Virus record (IMG/VR): IMGVR_UViG_3300048592_001015
Span: 1-44,417 of that record
Origin: a virus
Length of the DNA stretch: 44,417 bases
Strand: one strand, 5' to 3'
Shown here: piece by piece, positions 10,435 through 39,353 of the stretch
Position numbering within the stretch: position 1 is the stretch's first letter
Layout: every line of letters starts with the position of its first letter
Program-made: the position numbers and the translations under genes
Notes under the pieces: model-generated
Seen by the model: the letters and a program-made list of their open reading frames with translations, nothing else
What the model was told of the DNA's origin: nothing
The model's database searches: none

Positions 10435-11642
10435 AGATGGAAGATATCATCCGGGGCCTCAAGGCAATCCTGGAGCCGAAGCTCGCCGAACTCCGTAAGG
10501 AGCTCGCCGAGACCCGACGGGAAATGCGGGAGCTGGTCGACGCCGCCCAGGCGCAGATCGCAGACCTGACCAAGGAGAACGCAGATCTCAAGGCGCACGT
10601 CCAGCAGATCGACGAGGCGGGCATCAACCAGACCCGGCTGGCGATCGAGTCCGAGCGAGTCCTGGCCGAGGTCGCAAAGCAGATTGGAGGACTGTCCATT
10701 CCGGACGTGGCGGTGTTCCAGGCATCTGTGGATCGGGTGCTTGCCCGCTTCGAAGAGAAGTGGAAAGAGGCGTCTGACGAGATCCTATCCGTGCGGTCGG
10801 AGAACACCGACGCGCGCATGGACGTCAGCAATTTCATTTCCGAGACCTCCGCGGAAGTGAACCGCCGCCTGGATGAAGCGCACGCCAAGGTGGACGAGAG
10901 ATTGGCTTCCTTGAAGGATGGACGGGATGGCGAACCCGGTCCTCAAGGCGAGCCGGGACCGATGGGGCCAGCGGGGTCTCCTGGGCCTGAGGGTCCCATC
11001 GGTCCGCAGGGTGCCCCAGGCGAGCAAGGCCCCCAGGGCTTGCCCGGCCCGCAGGGTCTAACGGGTCCAACGGGGCACATCGCCAACGTGAAGACCATAC
11101 GGACCGGCGTCGAATACGGCGAAGGCGACCTGGGCTACTGGCGCGGGGGGTTGTGGCTCGCGACGAAGGATGTTCGCCAGCCCCCCGGCGAGGACCTGTC
11201 GTGGAAGCTCGTGGTCAACGGTGTCGACCCGGACTCCTTCAAGATGTCCTACAGCCCAGAGGGCGAGCGCGGGACGTTCGGCTTCGCCCTCAGCGACGGC
11301 ACGCAGAAGTCCTTTGAGGCTTGCTTCTCGCCGGTGCGTCACCTGGGCGCGTGGGAGGCCGAGGCCGAATACAATCTGAACGAAGAGGTCGCGTTCAACG
11401 GCTGCACCTGGAGGGCCTTGCGTCCGACAACGAGCCAGCCTCCCAGTGAGGACTGGAGACTTGTGTCACAGCGCGGCAAGTCCGGGCCGAGGGGGGATTC
11501 TGGCCCTCCGGGGCCGCCCGGCTCTGCTGGTCCTCCGGGTGCGGGCATCAAGGCTGTGGAGTTCGTCGACGGCGGGTTCCTGATCACGCTCACCGACGGA
11601 TCGTCTCTGGCCGCCCCTGTGACGGAGACCCCCGATGAGTGA
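10431..11642 (+). CDS. Collagen-like structural protein with coiled coil, 403 aa
   Basis: GTG 10431 overlaps the portal stop (GTGA). Residues 1-160 are a long coiled coil ([39 protein letters not shown]). Then comes about 17 Gly-X-Y triplets ([20 protein letters not shown]...), a middle domain with two aromatic 'W..G..W.A' repeats like carbohydrate-binding modules ([23 protein letters not shown]), a second shorter collagen stretch and a terminal beta segment. Collagen-like trimers form phage fibres. Its location between portal and connector hints at a head or neck fibre (whisker) that might bind host surface glycans. Confidence 0.8.
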
Positions 11643-31030: not shown

Positions 31031-31434
31031 CAGACGAACACCGGCCACAGATAGTCTAGGGCTGGCTTCTCCTTCCAGTCATACTTGCGGTAGAACTCGA
31101 AGTCCTTGTGGAGCAGCGCCGCACGGTGCGCCGAGTGGAACTGGTCATCCCCGAACCAGGGGGGAAGGGTGTAGGTCCGGACGTTGAACTTGAGCATCGT
31201 GTTTCGGTAGCCTCGCCGAACCCACTCGTCGACGCAGATATCGTGGTATTTCTTGAGGGCGCGAACGTGCCCCGCCCACATTCTCGCGGCAGGGTGATTG
31301 GACCACCCCCCGCCTTCTGTTATCGCCCTCACGAGCTGAGCGGCTTCAAGCCGTTGTTTGCCAAGACGGCGATAGTCAAGCATCTGGGCGCTGGACTTGA
31401 AGTCCGCAACGGGGAGGAAGGTCTGCATCGTCAC
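31030..31434 (-). CDS. Pyrimidine-dimer DNA glycosylase-like (MSMEG_6728/Pyr_excise) protein, 134 aa
   Basis: MQTFLPVADFKSSAQMLDYRRLGKQRLEAAQLVRAI and WSNHPAARMWAGHVRALKKYHDICVDEWVRRGY match the MSMEG_6728/Pyr_excise-type pattern: 'MqTFLP.pdf..SA..LD..RLgkQR.Ea.Q.l......W.nHPa..MW.gy..aL..Y....c.eW..RGy'. The family is annotated as pyrimidine-dimer excision-like, and may act on damaged or modified pyrimidines. The start is GTG 31434 (GTGA overlap), with ATG 31428 as an alternative. Confidence 0.78.
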   Translation of the reverse strand: MTMQTFLPVADFKSSAQMLDYRRLGKQRLEAAQLVRAITEGGGWSNHPAARMWAGHVRALKKYHDICVDEWVRRGYRNTMLKFNVRTYTLPPWFGDDQFHSAHRAALLHKDFEFYRKYDWKEKPALDYLWPVFV

Positions 31435-32056: not shown

Positions 32057-33949
32057 CTATACCAGGACTTCCTGCATGTCCCCCCAGGTCCTGCCGACTG
32101 CCAGATCGCAGACCACCGGGACGTGGAGGCTCACGGCGTTGTTCATGATCTCCACGCACTCCCGCGCCTCCTTCTCATTAGAAACGCTGAACACGTTCTC
32201 ATCGTGCACCGTAAGGCGAACCTTGAATCCGGCCCGCCAAGCGTCCAGCATGGATTGCTTGGTCATGTCGGCCGCGCTGCCCTGGATGCGGCGGTTGAAC
32301 ATCTTGCGGGCATCGTCGCCACCACCTGGATAGTAGAACACTCGGCACCGGCGACCGGAGAGGGTCGTAATGAAGCCCTCCCTTCGTGCTTCGCGCTCGG
32401 TGGCCTTGGCCGTCGCCTTCATGAAGGGCACGATCTTGTTGTATTCGTCCAGCAGCCGCCGCCCTTCTCTACCCGGCGCCAGATAGTTGATTTCCTGACC
32501 GCTATCGTTGATGAAGGAGTCCGGGTAGGCATCCAGCCCCAGGGCAAGACACAGACTTCCACCCCCCTGGCCATACATCTGTGCGAGGTTCAGGATCTTG
32601 GCGCTGCTGCGCTTGACATTCATCAGATCGGCGACCTTCTGGTGGAGATCCAGCCGGGGGTTGGCGTGGAACTCCTGGGCCATCTTGGCGGCGAGCTTGC
32701 TGCCTCCCTCGACGGCCCAATGGATCGCCAGACGCGGTTCCTGCGACGCATAGTCGGCGCTGGCCAGGAGCTCGCCCTCGTCGGCTTCCACCAGTCCGCG
32801 GATCACGCTGGCCACGACTTCGTCGCGGGCCGGGAGCTGCTGAAGGTTGGGATCCTGGCTGGAGAACCGACCCGAGACGGTGCCGCCATCGTCGGACTTG
32901 AGCTGGTTGAACTGCGCGTGGATGCGGCCCTTGTGATGGTGATCCAGGACCAGCCTCTCTACGAAAGTCACCCGTTGTCGATTCTTGCGGCGCAGGGCCA
33001 GGATCGTCCTGGCTACCTCCCCGGCCTTGTTCTGGTGCTTGCCGAGTTGATCCAGGAACGGCCCGGTCAGACCCTCCTTCTTTTTCTTGGGGGTCACGGG
33101 GAACCCGCTCACGCCCTCCACCTTGAGGACCCTGATCTGGGTTTCGATGTCCCAGGCTGTCATCCGGATGCCGGTCAGGCGCTTGAGTTCACGGGCGACA
33201 TCAGACTCCTCCACCAGGAGGTCCTCGCGCAGGATCTCTGCCTTGGGGACGTTCACGCGCACGCCCGCTCGCCGCATTTCGATCAGCATGGGGAGCAGGT
33301 CCATCTCGAGACGGTAGACCTTGGTGAGCTCCTCTTCCGCAATGCGCGGCATGAGCCTCTTGTGAACGCGCCATGTCGCAGAAGCGTCCTGCTCAGCGTA
33401 GGGGCCGACAGCGAAGGACGGGATGTCGGCCATCATCCCTTTCGGGTTGCCCTTGACCCCCGCTTGCTTCGCCCACTCGTAGAGCAGGCTTTCGTCCTTG
33501 CCCTCGTTGAGCTCCTCCTTGGCCAGATTGTCAAGGCTGTAGGAGAAGCGATGCTCATTGAGCAGGGGGGCGGCGACCTGGACATCGTGGATTCGTCCTT
33601 CGGGGATCATGTTCATCCACCCCAGGTCGTAGGACGCATTGGCGAACGCCCACTCCAGATCCCCCCTGCGGAGCTGGGTGCGGAGCCAGCGCATGAACTT
33701 GCCGATGTCGCCCTGCCAGTTCCCGCCGATGTGGCGAAGAGGATAGTAGCGGCAGTCCTCCAGTTTCTCAAGACCCCAGGCCAGGGCCACGCCGACGATG
33801 TATCCCTCGTTGAAGGCCCATCCAGGACCCTTGATCTTGAGCATCGGATCGTGGGTTTCCAAATCGAGCGCGACCAGGGAACCGGCAGGGATCTCAGGTA
33901 GTTCTGGAGGAGGGGGGACCCAGTCCATGATGGCTATCTCCGGGAACAT
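32057..33949 (-). CDS. polA: DNA polymerase I (family A) with 3'-5' exonuclease, 630 aa
   Basis: Exonuclease domain: Exo I LDLET (Asp29, Glu31), Exo II FANASYDLGW (Asp108), Exo III YAEQD (Asp188). Polymerase: motif A ASADYASQEPR (Asp399), O-helix RSSAKILNLAQMYG with Arg447, Lys451 and Tyr459, motif C TVHDE (His582-Asp583). The residue matching E. coli Phe762 is Leu455, a change reported to mark slower, often temperate-phage polymerases. There is no 5'-nuclease domain. It is the probable replicative enzyme of the phage. ATG 33949 overlaps the upstream stop (TGATG). Confidence 0.95.
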   Translation of the reverse strand: MFPEIAIMDWVPPPPELPEIPAGSLVALDLETHDPMLKIKGPGWAFNEGYIVGVALAWGLEKLEDCRYYPLRHIGGNWQGDIGKFMRWLRTQLRRGDLEWAFANASYDLGWMNMIPEGRIHDVQVAAPLLNEHRFSYSLDNLAKEELNEGKDESLLYEWAKQAGVKGNPKGMMADIPSFAVGPYAEQDASATWRVHKRLMPRIAEEELTKVYRLEMDLLPMLIEMRRAGVRVNVPKAEILREDLLVEESDVARELKRLTGIRMTAWDIETQIRVLKVEGVSGFPVTPKKKKEGLTGPFLDQLGKHQNKAGEVARTILALRRKNRQRVTFVERLVLDHHHKGRIHAQFNQLKSDDGGTVSGRFSSQDPNLQQLPARDEVVASVIRGLVEADEGELLASADYASQEPRLAIHWAVEGGSKLAAKMAQEFHANPRLDLHQKVADLMNVKRSSAKILNLAQMYGQGGGSLCLALGLDAYPDSFINDSGQEINYLAPGREGRRLLDEYNKIVPFMKATAKATEREARREGFITTLSGRRCRVFYYPGGGDDARKMFNRRIQGSAADMTKQSMLDAWRAGFKVRLTVHDENVFSVSNEKEARECVEIMNNAVSLHVPVVCDLAVGRTWGDMQEVLV

Positions 33950-34284
33950 CAGTCGATCACTTCAAAGGGTTGGATCTGCGCCGCGCGCAGGTCTGCGATC
34001 AGGGTCTTGGCCAGGGCCTCCCCACGACGGTAGGAATTGGGACGATTGGCCTTCAGCCAGTCCAGCTCCTCGACGCGCTTCATGCGGCTGACCATGGAGT
34101 CCTCGGAGAGCTCGCGGCCCAGCGCACGGCAGGCTTCCCGGATCTTGTAGAAGGACTCGTGGCCCAGCAGGAACCTGCCCGCCAGGATGGATGCGAACCC
34201 GGCCTTGCCCAGAAGGCCGAGAGCGGTGCGCTCAACGGGGAAGTCGCGCTTCCAGTTGAGCATTTTCTTGCCTGCGTTTGACAT
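33949..34284 (-). CDS. Hypothetical protein upstream of polA, 111 aa
   Basis: Not recognised. MSNAGKKMLNWKRDFPVERTALGLLGKAGFASILAGRFLLGHESFYKIREACRALGRELSEDSMVSRMKRVEELDWLKANRPNSYRRGEALAKTLIADLRAA: basic and helical, with a possible helix-turn-helix in about residues 45-75. It is translationally coupled to polA (TGATG), so it may be a replication accessory factor. It follows an intergenic region with a large hairpin and the CTCTAAATAGG element. Confidence 0.58.
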   Translation of the reverse strand: MSNAGKKMLNWKRDFPVERTALGLLGKAGFASILAGRFLLGHESFYKIREACRALGRELSEDSMVSRMKRVEELDWLKANRPNSYRRGEALAKTLIADLRAAQIQPFEVID

Positions 34285-34371: not shown

Positions 34372-35037
34372 TTAGGTCGCCGCCGCCACAAGGGCGCGCA
34401 TACGCCCCAGCGCCTCGCCGAGATACGCCGGGTTGCGCGTCTCGTGGAAAGCGTGCAGCAGGATGAAGACCACGCGCTCCGCTTCCGGGATGTTGTTCGC
34501 GTCCAGGAACTCGCCGATCGACGGGGCAACGAAGCCCTCGTCCTCGTGCTGCCCTTCCATCTCCAGCGTCTTCTCCAAGAAGTGCTGCGCCTTCTGCAGA
34601 TCCTCAAGACCGTTCTTGTCCCGCCACCGGAACAGATACTTCGACGTCTGGCCGATCAGGTAGCCGTAGTCGTGGCCACCGACGAAATCCCAATGCTGGA
34701 TCGGCTTGGCGTAGTGGGAGCCCCCCACCTGACGCAGATTGGCGCGCTGCCCTTCGGCGATGTCTTCACTCACTGGCGGTTCTCCGTTGATCAGGTTTTC
34801 GATCCAGGCAGCGGTCGCTCGCTGCGCATCCAAGGAAGTGGCGCGTCTCTCATACAGCTCCCTGTAGAGGGCCACGTTGTGGAGGGACGTGGCCAGCGAG
34901 CCGTAGAGGTCTCGTAACCAGTTCGCGGCGGCCGCCATCTGATCCCCATCTGCCGTGCCGAGGTTGAGCACAATCAGAAGGGTGCGGCGGCCAGCGGTGA
35001 GCTCCTTCGGGGAGTCCGGTTGTCCGTGCTTCTTCAC
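34372..35037 (-). CDS. DUF3310 protein (nucleotide-metabolism associated), 221 aa
   Basis: The C-terminal half starts QVGGSHYAKPIQHWDFVGGHDYGYLIGQTSKYLFRWRDKNGLEDLQKAQHFLEKTLE, the DUF3310 signature found in many phage proteins annotated as nucleotide-kinase-like. About 90 N-terminal residues are helical (MAAAANWLRDLYGSLATSLHNVALYRELYERRATSLDAQRATAAWIENLI). This extension makes the protein longer than a bare DUF3310. GTG 35037 overlaps the HD gene stop. Its place beside nucleotide enzymes fits a role in nucleotide supply. Confidence 0.8.
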   Translation of the reverse strand: MKKHGQPDSPKELTAGRRTLLIVLNLGTADGDQMAAAANWLRDLYGSLATSLHNVALYRELYERRATSLDAQRATAAWIENLINGEPPVSEDIAEGQRANLRQVGGSHYAKPIQHWDFVGGHDYGYLIGQTSKYLFRWRDKNGLEDLQKAQHFLEKTLEMEGQHEDEGFVAPSIGEFLDANNIPEAERVVFILLHAFHETRNPAYLGEALGRMRALVAAAT

Positions 35038-35522
35038 AGGACCAGCCCCGCTTCCCGGGCGAAATTGAACAGTGGAGGGGGGATTTCCGATTCGCTGTTC
35101 ATGATATAGTCTCCAACCTTGAGGAGGATCTCGGTGAAGTTCTGGTTGCCGATCAGCACTTCTCGCTGGGCGTGCAGACCTGCCTCGATGAGGTCGGCCC
35201 ACGCCAACCACTTTCTGGTGATCTCGGGCAGCATGTCCTCGTGCATGATTCCCATGCCCGTTGCGACGCTGACCTCGATGCCGCGGTGCTCGTTCGTCCT
35301 GGCGGGCCGGGGCATATCGCCGATCCGCGATTCGGCCAGATCGTGCTCCAGGCACGCCTGCATCAGCGACCGGTAGTGACCAGGGGGGCCGTCGTAGAGC
35401 CGGCTGATCAGCATGGCCACCCCCCACAGATGGGAGGCGAGGTTCTGCGGCCGCGAGTTCTGCATCGTGTGCCAGCGGGTCACATCGTAGCCCGCCTTGA
35501 TGAGTTGATTCAGCGGAGTCAT
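35034..35522 (-). CDS. HD-domain phosphohydrolase (5'-deoxynucleotidase-like), 162 aa
   Basis: RWHTMQNSRPQNLASHLWGVAMLISRLYD, ACLEHDLAESRIGDMPRPART and a distal Asp (KWLAWADLIEAGLHAQ) give the H...HD...D metal-binding pattern of HD hydrolases similar to YfbR 5'-deoxynucleotidases. It would dephosphorylate deoxynucleoside monophosphates or related nucleotides. In phages that replace a base, such enzymes remove the unwanted normal nucleotide. TGATG overlap with the thymidylate-synthase-like gene implies joint expression. Confidence 0.85.
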   Translation of the reverse strand: MTPLNQLIKAGYDVTRWHTMQNSRPQNLASHLWGVAMLISRLYDGPPGHYRSLMQACLEHDLAESRIGDMPRPARTNEHRGIEVSVATGMGIMHEDMLPEITRKWLAWADLIEAGLHAQREVLIGNQNFTEILLKVGDYIMNSESEIPPPLFNFAREAGLVL

Positions 35523-36439
35523 CACTTCACCCCATACATGCGCGCCGCGTGGAACCAGTCGCAGTCCGGGAACACGTCCAGGATCGACAGGTCCTTCTGG
35601 TGCCACGCCGCGAGCATGGGAAGGACCACGTTGTCGATGAAGCGGTTGCCAGACTCACACGGCTCGAAGTCCGGCTTGCCGTCTTCCGAGAGCCGCATGA
35701 ACAACATGTTCAGTTCCTCGACGAGGTCCTTCGTATCCAGCGGAACGACCGGGGGGTAGGGGATCACCTGCACGAAGTCCAGCATCCCCTTGCCCGGCCC
35801 GAAGTCCAGGTAGATGTGGGCGTTCGTGCTGATCTGGTGCAGGAAGCCGACGCGGACGCCGACGCAGGCCGCGATGTATTCCTGGAGGAAGGAGAACTGC
35901 ACGATGTTCGCGCCGAGCATTCCCCAGAGGAGGTCGTTGCTGCGGTTGAAGACGGTGAGGTCCAGCCCCCCGTTGACGATACGCAGGTTGATGTGAACGT
36001 TGCAGGGAATGTCCCTGCTCTCGGCGCCCAGGTCGTCGTTCGAGTTCCAGATGGCCATCGTCACACGGCGGCTGCCCGGCTGTTCGCGCAGCATCTGGAT
36101 CGCTTCCGGGATCTGGTCGGCGAGCCGCTTGCCGTAGTGACCACGGAGGGTCACGCCATCGTCGCTGTATTCCCGAAACCGGGGGGTGATGTCGGTGAAT
36201 GGCTTGAGCAGGTTCACCCTGGACAGGATGCTCAGCCCGTCCAGCAGAAAGAGGAACGGGTTGGCGCGGCGGCGCGGGCAGAGCAGGACCCGCTTGACGG
36301 GGTTTGCTGTCGTGACCGTGAGCGGCAGCGGGTAGGAAACGACCCGGCCGTTCCGGCTCACCTCCTCGATACCCTCCTGCCGGAGGCGGTGCGGCAGGAC
36401 GCTGATCGCGTGGTTGACGTTTTCGTATTGGACATGCAT
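35522..36439 (-). CDS. Thymidylate synthase / dUMP hydroxymethylase family protein, 305 aa
   Basis: Thymidylate-synthase superfamily: YGKRLADQI, SRR (124-125), WN, catalytic Cys146 in DIPCN, RSND (166-169), Asn178 in GANIV and His208-x-Tyr210. Asn178 matches the residue that selects dUMP over dCMP. Unlike true TS, Cys is followed by Asn not His. The usual catalytic Glu in 'ELLWFL' is Asp67 in NPFLFLLDGL. The Trp-containing cofactor segment is replaced by FREYSDDG. It may therefore make 5-hydroxymethyl-dUMP rather than dTMP. ATG 36439 follows CAGGAGGGCCTCAACG. Confidence 0.85.
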   Translation of the reverse strand: MHVQYENVNHAISVLPHRLRQEGIEEVSRNGRVVSYPLPLTVTTANPVKRVLLCPRRRANPFLFLLDGLSILSRVNLLKPFTDITPRFREYSDDGVTLRGHYGKRLADQIPEAIQMLREQPGSRRVTMAIWNSNDDLGAESRDIPCNVHINLRIVNGGLDLTVFNRSNDLLWGMLGANIVQFSFLQEYIAACVGVRVGFLHQISTNAHIYLDFGPGKGMLDFVQVIPYPPVVPLDTKDLVEELNMLFMRLSEDGKPDFEPCESGNRFIDNVVLPMLAAWHQKDLSILDVFPDCDWFHAARMYGVK

Positions 36440-36467
36440 CGTTGAGGCCCTCCTGGTGGCCGGGGTT

Positions 36468-36475
36468 ACACTAGC
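36468..36475 (-). promoter_or_regulatory. Candidate extended -10 promoter of the TS-like gene
   Basis: The minus strand reads TGCTAGTGT (-10 TAGTGT at 36468-36473, TG one base upstream), overlapping the end of the glycosyltransferase gene. It lies 29 bp before ATG 36439, with the CAGGAGGG ribosome-binding site between. The -35 is weak. Confidence 0.38.
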
Positions 36476-37250
36476 ACGGGGCAGCGGCGAACGCACGCTT
36501 CCACGCTATCTTGACTTCGAGTCTTGTTGGGTTCTTGAAGCCTCTCCAGTTCGTGTTGTCCTTCTCCACCAGGGACACGAAGTCCGGGTGCAGACGGTAG
36601 AGTTCCCTGGCGGCGCTGTCCGCCATCTCTTCCGTGCGGTAGGTCGCGCACCCCCCACGGGCATTGGAGGCGCCGACTTGGTCCTGGGCGTATTCGTAGA
36701 TCACGCAGTTCGCCAGACGGTTCCGCAGGAGCTGGAGTGTCATGTCGAAGTCCTGCTTCGCCGGCACCCGATCGAACCGGCACGAGGGGGGAACCCGGCT
36801 CCGGTCGTATGCCAGGAATCGCATCATCCGCTCGTTGATCTGGTGCGGCTCCGGCTTGCGGTTGTTCCCCTCCCTGGCGCTGATGCCGACATGGGCAAAC
36901 CGCTGGAGCTTCGACCGGACCATGGCCATCATATCGGCGATGTCGGACGGCTTGGCGTCCAGGAGCTTGGAACGGTCGTCCGGGTTCTTGCGGCTGAACC
37001 GGAGATCGTCATCGCAGAGAATCATGAATCGTGTTTCGCAATTCTCCAGGAGCCATTGCCTCGTCGGGGAGAGGCTCTTGATCTCCTTGGGCAGCCGAAG
37101 GACCGGGACGGCCGGATACTTCATGCGGTGAAACTCGAACTCGTGCGCCTGCACGACGAGGACAGGGGTGACGCCCCCCGCCCGTAACGCGATCAGAGTA
37201 GGCTGGTTGTCCACGCGCCCCAGCGTGTGGATATAGACGGTCAGTTCCAT
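36471..37250 (-). CDS. GT-A type glycosyltransferase (TAGT-like), 259 aa
   Basis: MELTVYIHTLGRVDNQPTLIALRAGG..PVLVVQAHEFEFHRMK opens a Rossmann-like nucleotide-sugar fold. SPTRQWLLENCETRFMILCDDDLRFSRK contains Asp80-Asp81-Asp82, the D-x-D metal/UDP-sugar site. This layout resembles the TET/JBP-associated glycosyltransferases (TAGT) that glycosylate hydroxymethylated bases in phage DNA. The C-terminal half (FDRVPAKQDFDMTLQLLRN) should bind the acceptor. The start overlaps the end of the HMUDK-helical gene by 10 bp, which ties the two together. The acceptor is inferred. Confidence 0.72.
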   Translation of the reverse strand: MELTVYIHTLGRVDNQPTLIALRAGGVTPVLVVQAHEFEFHRMKYPAVPVLRLPKEIKSLSPTRQWLLENCETRFMILCDDDLRFSRKNPDDRSKLLDAKPSDIADMMAMVRSKLQRFAHVGISAREGNNRKPEPHQINERMMRFLAYDRSRVPPSCRFDRVPAKQDFDMTLQLLRNRLANCVIYEYAQDQVGASNARGGCATYRTEEMADSAARELYRLHPDFVSLVEKDNTNWRGFKNPTRLEVKIAWKRAFAAAPC

Positions 37251-38119
37251 CCTGCGAACTCCCTGTAGCGCGACCGAACGGACCCCTCGCCGTTCTTCAG
37301 TCGCTGATACTTGTCATACTCGCACATCACGTTCTGGGTGTCCATAAGCTCCAGTCGGTCATAGATGTGCGGCAGGCGAGCGGCGCCCCTGGCATGGGCC
37401 AGCCGCAGCACGTCTAACCACTCGTTATAGGGCATTCCTGCGCCAGGGGGCTGTCCTACAAGGCGGTTCACCCCCCGCTTGCTACCGGGGCCTTGCGGCG
37501 CCCACGACAGCCTGTCCGACCACGGAAGCTCGTGATGGATATGCCGGAGATCGGCGACCGCCTGCCCTGCCATGAACGATCCAATGCCGGGCTTGCCGTT
37601 GAGCCAATCCCAGACCTCGCGCATCGTCTGCGGGTGCTTCGGTGCCGTGCGCCTCGCCGCCCAGAGGGGGGCCAGGACCTTCCGCGTCACCTGGAGGATC
37701 TTGTCTCCGCCCAGCGCCCCGTTGATGATGTAGGCGCCCGTGAACACCTTCTCGCGACGAGCCTTGCGCTTGAGCAGCACCATCGTCCACTGATACTCGT
37801 CGTAGGGGGCGGGGTAGGGAAGGGCTTGCAGCGACGGCGGCCAGTTGATCAGGCGCCCCCCGACCGCGGCCACCATGCGATTCTGCAGGCCGATCTCTGG
37901 GTGGGTCTGGTGCCAGCGCAGGAGCCAATGGCTGACTCGGTCGTCCATGCGGCGGACGTTGCACCAGCGATAAGCGGTGAACAGGGAATCCTGGCTCCAG
38001 GGTTTGGGATCGTTATTCTCCCTTCGTGCCCTGACCTTCTCCCTTTCTTCGACCCAATAGCACATCGCATCCAATTGGTCGGGCTGGATGCGGTCGCCTC
38101 TACGGCGTATTATCTTCAT
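37241..38119 (-). CDS. 5-hmdU DNA kinase helical domain / aGPT-PPlase-like protein, 292 aa
   Basis: MKIIRRRGDRIQPDQL precedes CYWVEEREKVRARRENNDPKPWSQDSLFTAYRWCNVRRMDDRVSHWL (20-66), the N-terminal signature of the HMUDK-helical/aGPT-PPlase family. PGIGSFMAGQAVADL (177-191) is a helix-hairpin-helix-like turn, and GPGSKRGVNRL (210-220) is the second hallmark. The fold is DNA-glycosylase-like, and the family is tied to phage thymidine hypermodification through 5-hydroxymethyl-dU. No P-loop kinase is fused here. ATG 38119 follows GGAGGGGCCC. Confidence 0.78.
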   Translation of the reverse strand: MKIIRRRGDRIQPDQLDAMCYWVEEREKVRARRENNDPKPWSQDSLFTAYRWCNVRRMDDRVSHWLLRWHQTHPEIGLQNRMVAAVGGRLINWPPSLQALPYPAPYDEYQWTMVLLKRKARREKVFTGAYIINGALGGDKILQVTRKVLAPLWAARRTAPKHPQTMREVWDWLNGKPGIGSFMAGQAVADLRHIHHELPWSDRLSWAPQGPGSKRGVNRLVGQPPGAGMPYNEWLDVLRLAHARGAARLPHIYDRLELMDTQNVMCEYDKYQRLKNGEGSVRSRYREFAGWN

Positions 38120-38137
38120 GGGCCCCTCCAAACGAAA

Positions 38138-38165
38138 CGAGGGGGGCAGTTTCCCACCCCCCTCG
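38138..38165 (-). terminator. G6/C6 hairpin between acidic-protein gene and HMUDK-helical gene
   Basis: CGAGGGGGG (38138-38146) pairs perfectly with CCCCCCTCG (38157-38165) around CAGTTTCCCA. Read on the minus strand, it is followed by TTTCGTTT, a usable T-rich tail. It should end most transcripts of the abundant acidic protein. Confidence 0.7.
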
Positions 38166-38187
38166 CTCACGCGCCGATCATCAGCGA

Positions 38188-38838
38188 TCAGGTGATGCTG
38201 ATGTAGCCCTGCTTGAGGCAGTGACCGGCGAAGCCGCGCGGCGTGGCGAGCTCGGCCTCGGAGGCCTTCTTGATGAACTCGCCGACCGTCTTGCACTTCT
38301 GGATCATCGCCCACTTCGCGGCGCGGCCGGTGCCCTCCTGGAACTTCGCGTCCTTCTTCAGCACCGTGATCTTCTGGTCGTCCTTGATCTTCGGCTCACG
38401 GGGCGGCGGGGCGCGCTTGGCCTTCGGGGCCTCCGCTTCCTCCTCGTCCTCGGCGGGCGCGGCCTTGGTCTTCACCTTGGCCTTCGCCGACTTCTTGGGC
38501 GGCGGGGCGGGCTCCTCCTCGGCTTCCTCCTCGGCCTCCTCCTCGTCGGCCTCCTCCTCGTCCTCGGACTCCTCGGTCTCCTCCTCGTCCTCCTCCGGCT
38601 CCGGCTCCGGCGCGGCCTTGGCCTTGGTCTTGACCTTCGCCTTGGCCTTCTTCTCGTTCAGGACGAAGTTCCCCTCGTCATCGGTCGAGAGGACCAGGCC
38701 CTTGGTCTCGAGGATCGCGGCGAGCTCCTTGCGGCCGGTCGCGACGTTCTTGACCTTCGTGGCCTTGCCGTTCACCTCGGTGAGGATGTCGGCCAGATCG
38801 GACGCGTCCAGCTCGTTGATGTCGACTTCGTTCGGCAT
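38188..38838 (-). CDS. Acidic low-complexity phage protein, 216 aa
   Basis: Three parts. Residues 1-60 (MPNEVDINELDASDLADILTEVNGKATKVKNVATGRKELAAILETKG) are folded. About 60-150 is a disordered Glu-rich segment flanked by repeated KAKVKTKA motifs. The C-terminal 65 residues (KITVLKKDAKFQEGTGRAAKWAMIQKCKTVGEFIKKASEAE..GHCLKQGYISI) match a domain common in phages and prophages. Codon use is as GC3-extreme as the capsid gene, and it has its own strong promoter and terminator. I infer abundant expression, perhaps a DNA- or nucleoid-binding role. Function unknown. Confidence 0.75.
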   Translation of the reverse strand: MPNEVDINELDASDLADILTEVNGKATKVKNVATGRKELAAILETKGLVLSTDDEGNFVLNEKKAKAKVKTKAKAAPEPEPEEDEEETEESEDEEEADEEEAEEEAEEEPAPPPKKSAKAKVKTKAAPAEDEEEAEAPKAKRAPPPREPKIKDDQKITVLKKDAKFQEGTGRAAKWAMIQKCKTVGEFIKKASEAELATPRGFAGHCLKQGYISIT

Positions 38839-38886
38839 TGGAATCTCCTGGGTTGCCGGTCTGCCGGGAACTACCCGGCCATTTTC

Positions 38887-38915
38887 AATATACCCTAGTG
38901 ACGGGTCGGTTGCAA
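38887..38915 (-). promoter_or_regulatory. Strong sigma70 promoter for the acidic-protein gene
   Basis: On the minus strand TTGCAA (38910-38915), a 17-bp spacer and TATATT (38887-38892) precede the ATG at 38838, with CCCAGGAG as ribosome-binding site. It is the closest match to the sigma70 consensus found in the window. A GGGGG...CCCCCC pairing just upstream (about 38915-38935) may terminate the dUTPase transcript. Confidence 0.75.
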
Positions 38916-38924
38916 GGGGGGAAA

Positions 38925-39353
38925 TTAGGCCCCCGTGCTGCCGAAGCGGCCTTCTCCCCGAGCGGACGGGGTCAGCGCTTCCACGTAGTCGATCTCCGCC
39001 CGGATGAACGGAGCGAGGACCGCCTGGGCGATACGGTCCCCCCGCTTGACGTGGTATATCACGTCGCCCACGTTCATGAGGACGATCATCAGTTCCCCCC
39101 GGTAGTCGTAGTCCAGGGTGCCGGGCGAGTTCAGCACGAAGATCTTGTGCTTCGCCGCCATGCCGCTCCGGCTGCGGATCTGGAGCTCGTGGCCATGAGG
39201 GACCTCGAACATCAGGCCGGTCTTGAAGATGTGGTGCATCCTGGGATACAGAATTCCGTCCTCGGCAGACGGGATGTCCATGCCCGCCGCTCCATCCGTC
39301 GCGTAGGACGGAAGGGCGACAGCGTGGGCTAGAGTGGCGACACGTATGATCAC
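38925..39353 (-). CDS. dut: dUTPase (trimeric type), 142 aa
   Basis: All five motifs of trimeric dUTP diphosphatases are present: I ATDGAAGMDI (18-27), II RSRSGMAAKH, III GTLDYDYRGEL with the catalytic Asp, IV GDRIAQAVLAP, and V GEGRFGSTGA at the C-terminus. It hydrolyses dUTP to dUMP and pyrophosphate, keeping U out of DNA and supplying dUMP to the thymidylate-synthase-like enzyme encoded 2.5 kb downstream. GTG 39353 overlaps the preceding stop. Confidence 0.95.
   Translation of the reverse strand: MIIRVATLAHAVALPSYATDGAAGMDIPSAEDGILYPRMHHIFKTGLMFEVPHGHELQIRSRSGMAAKHKIFVLNSPGTLDYDYRGELMIVLMNVGDVIYHVKRGDRIAQAVLAPFIRAEIDYVEALTPSARGEGRFGSTGA

Follow-up and report, generated by a model that had tools for sequence, protein, structure and literature searches.

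A viral gene cluster that probably specifies glycosylated 5-hydroxymethyluracil in DNA

Introduction

What might a phage do with 5-hydroxymethyldeoxyuridine (5-hmdU) if it encodes a glycosyltransferase and the helical companion domain of a 5-hmdU DNA kinase, and no such kinase? This question is raised by the IMG/VR virus record IMGVR_UViG_3300048592_001015, a 44,417-base stretch analysed here at its full length (the window) and belonging to a virus that infects bacteria. An initial annotation, made from the bases alone, proposed a thymidine/uracil hypermodification cluster comprising a dUTPase, a protein with the helical domain HMUDK_hel, a glycosyltransferase, a thymidylate synthase (TS)-family enzyme, an HD-domain nucleotidase and a DUF3310 protein. 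The cluster is real: Pfam and PHROGs searches recovered every family named, DUF3310 marginally (its Pfam score of 23.7 bits lies just under the cut-off of 24, and relatives have the gene at the same position).

HMUDK_hel, the glycosyltransferase family TAGT and hypermodification of 5-hmdU are each already known. To our knowledge, the known 5-hmdU-derived bases of phages branch from a phosphorylated intermediate, formed by a kinase and followed by amino-acid transfer. A literature search found no phage 5-hmdU glycosylated directly at the hydroxymethyl group, although the association of these genes may have been predicted before (e.g. Iyer et al. 2013); a 2019 paper gave glucosylated 5hmdU as unreported in phages, and the glucosylated uracil of phage SP-15 is a different one, 5-dihydroxypentyluracil (PMC5977210). 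The gene content of the window cluster, the families of its products, their signature residues and the exchange of kinase for glycosyltransferase among related clusters can be read directly from the genomes compared here, and the cluster most likely makes a base-J-like genome that contains glycosylated 5-hydroxymethyluracil.

Results

Judged by its residues, the TS-family enzyme is a dUMP hydroxymethylase. Its DIPCN motif places an aspartate three residues before the catalytic cysteine (position -3) and an asparagine at the uracil-specificity position. Structure-based work on T4 dCMP hydroxymethylase identified the aspartate at -3, which is leucine in TS, as a signature of hydroxymethylation and Asp179 as the determinant for cytosine (PMC6400193). 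The combination of this aspartate with the uracil-type asparagine is also found in M6, Kuttervirus, a SPO1-like phage and every HMUDK_hel-linked homologue aligned. It is absent from E. coli TS, which like dTMP-forming TS in general has leucine at -3 and histidine after the cysteine, and from the dCMP hydroxymethylase T4 gp42, which has Asp where the window enzyme and all of the aligned HMUDK_hel-linked homologues have Asn. The window protein scores under all curated TS equivalog cut-offs (77 bits against 174.6, and lower still for the others), its best match in the PDB is a CMP 5-hydroxymethylase (5b6d), and by sequence it is closest to the enzymes of 5-hmdU phages, with which it also shares a Gly/Ala in place of the serine that in T4 gp42 is a signature residue two positions before the active-site tyrosine. 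Separately, the cofactor-activating glutamate of the TS superfamily aligns to aspartate throughout the window clade (window 35522-36439; L005-L013 and L029, where L numbers denote the loci compared here). The adjoining dUTPase is intact and is predicted to supply dUMP while excluding dUTP from DNA, so that the route from dUTP through dUMP and 5-hmdUMP into DNA, as originally proposed, gains support from both enzymes.

The glycosyltransferase lies well above the curated cut-off of the TAGT family PF20691 (68.9 bits against 27.5). D80-D82, D167, GGC199-201, R205 and a C-terminal W250 are invariant across 16 TAGTs, and the DDD motif picked out at the start is thus a conserved family feature. Close relatives are represented by only four records in the INPHARED collection and by 187 confirmed stretches in a scan of viral contigs. 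PF12851 (Tet_JBP) was unseen in the window and in 38 related records, in a search that contained no positive-control record; the "TET-associated" part of the TAGT name may therefore not fit here, and a TET-derived hydroxymethyl group found no support. More than one TAGT stretch is found in clusters L158, L181 and L025, suggesting a disaccharide decoration there, and in one HMUDK_hel cluster a radical SAM/SPASM protein adjoins the TAGT (L013:7771-8763), which may indicate that the added group is processed further. The kit of TAGT, HMUDK_hel and hydroxymethylase also occurs on a contig of a Methylobacter sp. metagenome-assembled genome (L199), a possible hint at the host of one such phage.

Current Pfam separates three families in this area, namely HMUDK_hel (PF18723), the 5-hmdU DNA kinase (PF18748) and ADDT, the amino acid:DNA transferase (PF18724). 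They are three separate genes in Pam3, RHph_TM26 and M6, while kinase and HMUDK_hel are fused in Bacillus phage Goe26. The label "aGPT-PPlase/HMUDK-helical" first given to the 37241 gene spans two of these families: the HMUDK_hel part ("clade 1") holds, with 126.6 bits against a PF18723 cut-off of 25 and all invariant columns of our HMUDK_hel alignments (A1/A3) retained, whereas ADDT ("clade 2") is absent. Profile searches thus place the 37241 gene in HMUDK_hel and the 36471 gene in TAGT, and neither in an unrelated family. Searches that matched M6, Pam3 and RHph_TM26 gave no match to the PF18748 kinase in the whole 44 kb record and none to PF18724 in the window, and both families were likewise unseen in close relatives up to 30 kb. 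Nor does the record hold a sense-strand Walker A kinase, the one long frame with such a motif lying on the strand opposite PolA. The suspicion that this is a variant pathway lacking a P-loop hmdU kinase is therefore supported.

Across related clusters, kinase and glycosyltransferase replace one another. Our first comparative sample, seeded mainly by HMUDK_hel, comprised 82 loci below 95% identity, 68 of which also had a hydroxymethylase. Among these 68, kinase only was found in 34, a glycosyltransferase-type gene only in 31 (18 TAGT, 7 GT-B-like and 6 of a further glycosyltransferase-like family), both in 1 and neither in 2 (Fisher p 7e-16, a value that, like the other p-value from this sample, ignores kinship). 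Since genes in these very slots supplied the GT-B-like and further profiles, which match Pfam glycosyltransferases only weakly, the clean test of exchange is TAGT versus kinase, for which the overlap is 0 of 18 against 35 (p 8e-8). ADDT follows the kinase, with 20 of 20 occurrences in kinase clusters and none in glycosyltransferase-type ones, and whole-record searches turned up one further exception with both kinase and glycosyltransferase (L049). The best HMUDK_hel tree requires at least 10 switches of the kinase/glycosyltransferase label, and at least 4 remain when only supported branches are counted; a formal sign test is underpowered. Within the window clade, the slot between HMUDK_hel and the hydroxymethylase is occupied by TAGT in L005, L006 and L008, and by a GT-B-like protein of ~423 residues in L007, L010, L012 and L029; the latter is assigned as a glycosyltransferase because some of its 7 members have Pfam matches, all of them below threshold, and its structure model has a pLDDT of 36.

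A second sample, seeded by TAGT alone, gave 54 non-redundant clusters. HMUDK_hel is present in 47 of the 54 and a kinase in 1 (L125, found with our own profile), with no PF18748 match over 47 whole records. Every cluster of this sample that has a TS-like gene (51/51) carries the uracil-type hydroxymethylase motif, usually within 400 bp. Counting the loci that hold both TAGT and HMUDK_hel, the two genes are at most 150 bp apart in 45 of 67, always in separate frames, and none of the 67 has them fused.

Twenty-three HMUDK_hel residues are invariant in 41 sequences, whether kinase-linked, glycosyltransferase-linked or orphan. An AlphaFold2 model of the window protein (pLDDT 92) is all helical and contains a helix-hairpin-helix, formed by helix 166-173, the hairpin NGKPGIG and helix 181-194. 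Neither HMUDK_hel nor TAGT has a solved structure related by sequence. The nearest PDB structures to the HMUDK_hel model, both weak matches, are an archaeal 8-oxoguanine DNA glycosylase on DNA (3knt) and the phage glycinyltransferase PUGT (8z2m), and in a viral structure library the model matches other HMUDK_hel proteins and ADDT. The simplest reading is that HMUDK_hel acts as a DNA-binding, base-presenting partner, providing one DNA- or base-handling function common to different decorating enzymes.

HMUDK_hel also occurs in other settings. Stand-alone copies with no hydroxymethylase, kinase or glycosyltransferase nearby are found in L042, L048, L050, L051, L055, L082 and L092, mostly large contigs; several of them share a neighbourhood, and the L082 copy adjoins an inosine-uridine nucleoside hydrolase. 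In L034 a sulfotransferase-like gene (10852-11631; PF13469, weak) lies between HMUDK_hel and a glycosyltransferase-like gene, 5' of the hydroxymethylase, raising the possibility of a sulfated decoration. On bacterial chromosomes (L202-L252, among them Pectobacterium aroidearum L215, Vibrio neptunius L233 and Prevotella L222) a divergent HMUDK_hel is followed directly by a TS-like gene, and these may be defence loci, because DefensePredictor validated defence systems that contain a TS and a 5hmdU kinase (PMC13092281).

In the record as a whole, packaging and structural genes occupy the plus strand and the replication module the minus strand, where the genes in Table 1 form a run from 39353 to 32057. 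Several starts were corrected: HMUDK_hel begins at ATG 38119 (292 aa) and overlaps the TAGT gene by 10 bp, the TS-family gene begins at ATG 36439, 3' of AGGAGGG, and the HD gene begins at ATG 35522, overlapping the TS-family stop. The HD protein shares its HD pattern and its gene position with M6 gp59 and Pam3 gp53. The Lys/Glu-rich protein matched no family above cut-off in Pfam or PHROGs. No near-identical phage was found in the INPHARED set; the block itself, with its gene order unchanged, is found again in M6, Pam3, RHph_TM26 and dozens of viral contigs, and the co-occurrence of these genes is therefore not due to chance. The same module also encodes a protein of the pyrimidine-dimer DNA glycosylase family (31033-31434, minus strand; PF03013, E 2.4e-22), and the record opens with ~18 tandem CCTGGC hexamers (1-108), either a terminal repeat or an assembly artefact.

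Table 1. Minus-strand genes of the window cluster in order of transcription, with the matches that identify them.
Feature	Position	Strand	Evidence
dUTP diphosphatase	38925..39353	-	PF00692 E 2.6e-25; NCBIfam PRK00601 equivalog, 153 bits (cut-off 103)
Lys/Glu-rich protein	38188..38838	-	homologues 5' of HMUDK_hel in L005, L008, L010, L012, L013
HMUDK_hel, stand-alone 5-hmdU DNA kinase helical domain	37241..38119	-	PF18723 E 1.5e-36; phrog_2396 E 1e-47
TAGT-family glycosyltransferase	36471..37250	-	PF20691 E 7.4e-19; phrog_842 E 3.8e-44
TS-superfamily dUMP hydroxymethylase (predicted)	35522..36439	-	phrog_5131 E 3e-64; Thymidylat_synt E 1.6e-16, partial match
HD-domain 5'-deoxynucleotidase-like protein	35034..35522	-	PF12917 (YfbR-like) E 3.6e-10
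DUF3310-containing protein, start uncertain	34372..~34941	-	PF11753 E 5e-5; phrog_5839 E 5e-24
Small conserved protein between DUF3310 and PolA	33949..34284	-	homologues at the same position in L006-L012
Family A DNA polymerase (PolA)	32057..33949	-	PF00476 (DNA_pol_A) E 1.9e-39

Discussion

In the pathway that we propose, the dUTPase would convert dUTP to dUMP, which the TS-like enzyme would turn into 5-hmdUMP by addition of water rather than hydride transfer, a step for which the residues give good support. A kinase, presumably of the host, would raise 5-hmdUMP to 5-hmdUTP for polymerisation by PolA, and the HD protein may deplete dTMP/dTTP or other unwanted nucleotides; PhiW-14 infection, for example, induces a dTTPase (PMC5977210). 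TAGT, as its family, active site and genomic context suggest, would then glycosylate the 5-hydroxymethyl group in DNA, using a nucleotide sugar as donor, while HMUDK_hel would bind the DNA and present, probably by flipping, the 5-hmdU, presumably in the same way as for the P-loop kinase of M6-type phages. HMUDK_hel might also set a sequence preference, comparable to that of the M6 kinase, which prefers TG/TC (PMC6449724); 5-HMUDK acts on hmU and not on hydroxymethylcytosine (hmC) in DNA (PMC6457204). The modification would shield virion DNA from host nucleases. The initial annotation had left decoration to the helical protein and/or a sugar: the sugar enzyme is the most likely agent, while the helical protein is neither a kinase nor an amino-acid transferase.

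The alternatives differ in which step they change. We consider it fairly unlikely that HMUDK_hel is itself the catalyst, performing base excision, pyrophosphorylation or some other transfer, rather than a presenting subunit. Its helix-hairpin-helix resembles that of glycosylases, and an invariant D202 lies 22 residues past the hairpin, a spacing that we take to approximate the position of the catalytic Asp in helix-hairpin-helix glycosylases such as hOGG1 and MutY; the domain also occurs alone in some large contigs. However, the position of the OGG1 catalytic lysine is held by an invariant phenylalanine (F182), and partners with unrelated chemistries, together with the kinase fusion in Goe26, are what a shared recognition module would be expected to show. 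It is unlikely that the DNA carries plain 5-hmdU, with TAGT acting elsewhere (on a phage protein or the cell surface) or not being expressed. GT-A enzymes are versatile, and we know of no TAGT chemistry on 5-hmdU. SPO1-type phages do carry unglycosylated 5-hmdU (PMC6449724). Set against this are the association of TAGT with uracil-type hydroxymethylases (in every TAGT-seeded cluster that has a TS-like gene) and with HMUDK_hel (in 47 of the 54), and the finding that the TAGT of T6-like phages is held to glucosylate hmC DNA a second time (PMC13390438).

An amino-acid- or polyamine-type hypermodification, as in M6, ViI or PhiW-14, whose kinase and transferase would lie beyond the ends of this record or have diverged too far to be recognised, seems to us quite improbable. 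The window shares its gene block with M6, Pam3 and RHph_TM26 and the IMG/VR record could be truncated, but searches of the record and of close relatives revealed neither family, no sense-strand Walker A frame is present, kinases elsewhere usually lie within a few kb of HMUDK_hel, and in the HMUDK_hel sample ADDT never enters glycosyltransferase-type clusters. Least credible is a modified cytosine, with the TS-like enzyme as a dCMP hydroxymethylase and TAGT acting on hmC as in T-even phages, a highly improbable arrangement even though TAGT and phrog_842 were named from hmC systems and the best PDB match is a CMP hydroxymethylase. The base-specificity position is Asn and not Asp, the ground on which we rejected cytosine modification; a dUTPase adjoins, and the sequence is nearest to those of 5-hmdU phages. 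Several observations weigh against glycosylated 5-hydroxymethyluracil presented by HMUDK_hel, our preferred explanation. The IMG/VR record may be incomplete, and the window showed no nucleotide-sugar gene, so the donor would be host-made. In fold, HMUDK_hel matches DNA glycosylases only weakly (E 0.8-1.6). Kinase and glycosyltransferase occur together in a few clusters (L053, L049, L125). Some phages with TAGT and a uracil-type hydroxymethylase, including the complete ctUhy936, L124, L134 and others, have no HMUDK_hel, and TAGT can therefore apparently work without it.

With glycosylation of 5-hmdU as the favoured outcome, the window cluster points to a second branch of 5-hmdU metabolism, the direct glycosylation of the hydroxymethyl group, as a phage analogue of base J. 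Because HMUDK_hel stays while kinase and glycosyltransferase are exchanged beside it, this domain, until now known only by the name of its fusion partner, acquires a role that can be tested. Tentatively, and with slightly more doubt than confidence, we suggest that HMUDK_hel may be a general 5-hmdU-presenting adaptor with interchangeable decorators (P-loop kinase, TAGT, GT-B-like proteins, perhaps a sulfotransferase), that thymine hypermodification could thus be a plug-in system, and that base-J-like glycosyl-5-hmdU DNA might be common in environmental phages. Such a base would bear on restriction and modification-dependent defence, and its enzymes could be used to label 5-hmdU in DNA.

How does the cluster compare with known systems? 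The thymidine hypermodification cluster of Pseudomonas phage M6 and Yuavirus, which produces 5-NedU, was reportedly described by Lee et al. in 2018 and 2022. The window shares with M6 the HMUDK_hel, uracil-type hydroxymethylase, HD protein and PolA genes in identical order, but M6, whose DNA carries 5-NedU (PMC6449724), has the 5-hmdU DNA kinase and ADDT, whereas the window has neither and instead places TAGT between HMUDK_hel and the hydroxymethylase. Measured against 5-hmdU hypermodification clusters in general (M6, ViI, PhiW-14), it possesses the hydroxymethylase, by sequence signature, and lacks both kinase and ADDT. The T-even TAGTs, as in T6 and the Durham Tequatrovirus phages (PMC13390438), likewise pair this family with hydroxymethylated phage DNA; there, however, TAGT adds a second glucose to glucosyl-hmC, while in the window the partner enzyme is of the uracil type and no other glycosyltransferase was found. 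Brevibacterium phage LuckyBarnes (NC_047851) has a complete genome with HMUDK_hel, TAGT, uracil-type hydroxymethylase and PolA and no kinase; it differs in having two TAGTs, annotated only as glycosyltransferases, an extended hydroxymethylase and a very divergent HMUDK_hel, and our literature search found no report of a modified base in it. The proposed product, an O-glycosylated 5-hydroxymethyluracil in DNA, belongs to the same class as kinetoplastid base J (JBP1/2 and JGT), but base J synthesis starts with the oxidation of thymine in DNA by TET/JBP enzymes, whereas the window route would make the hydroxymethyl group on the nucleotide.

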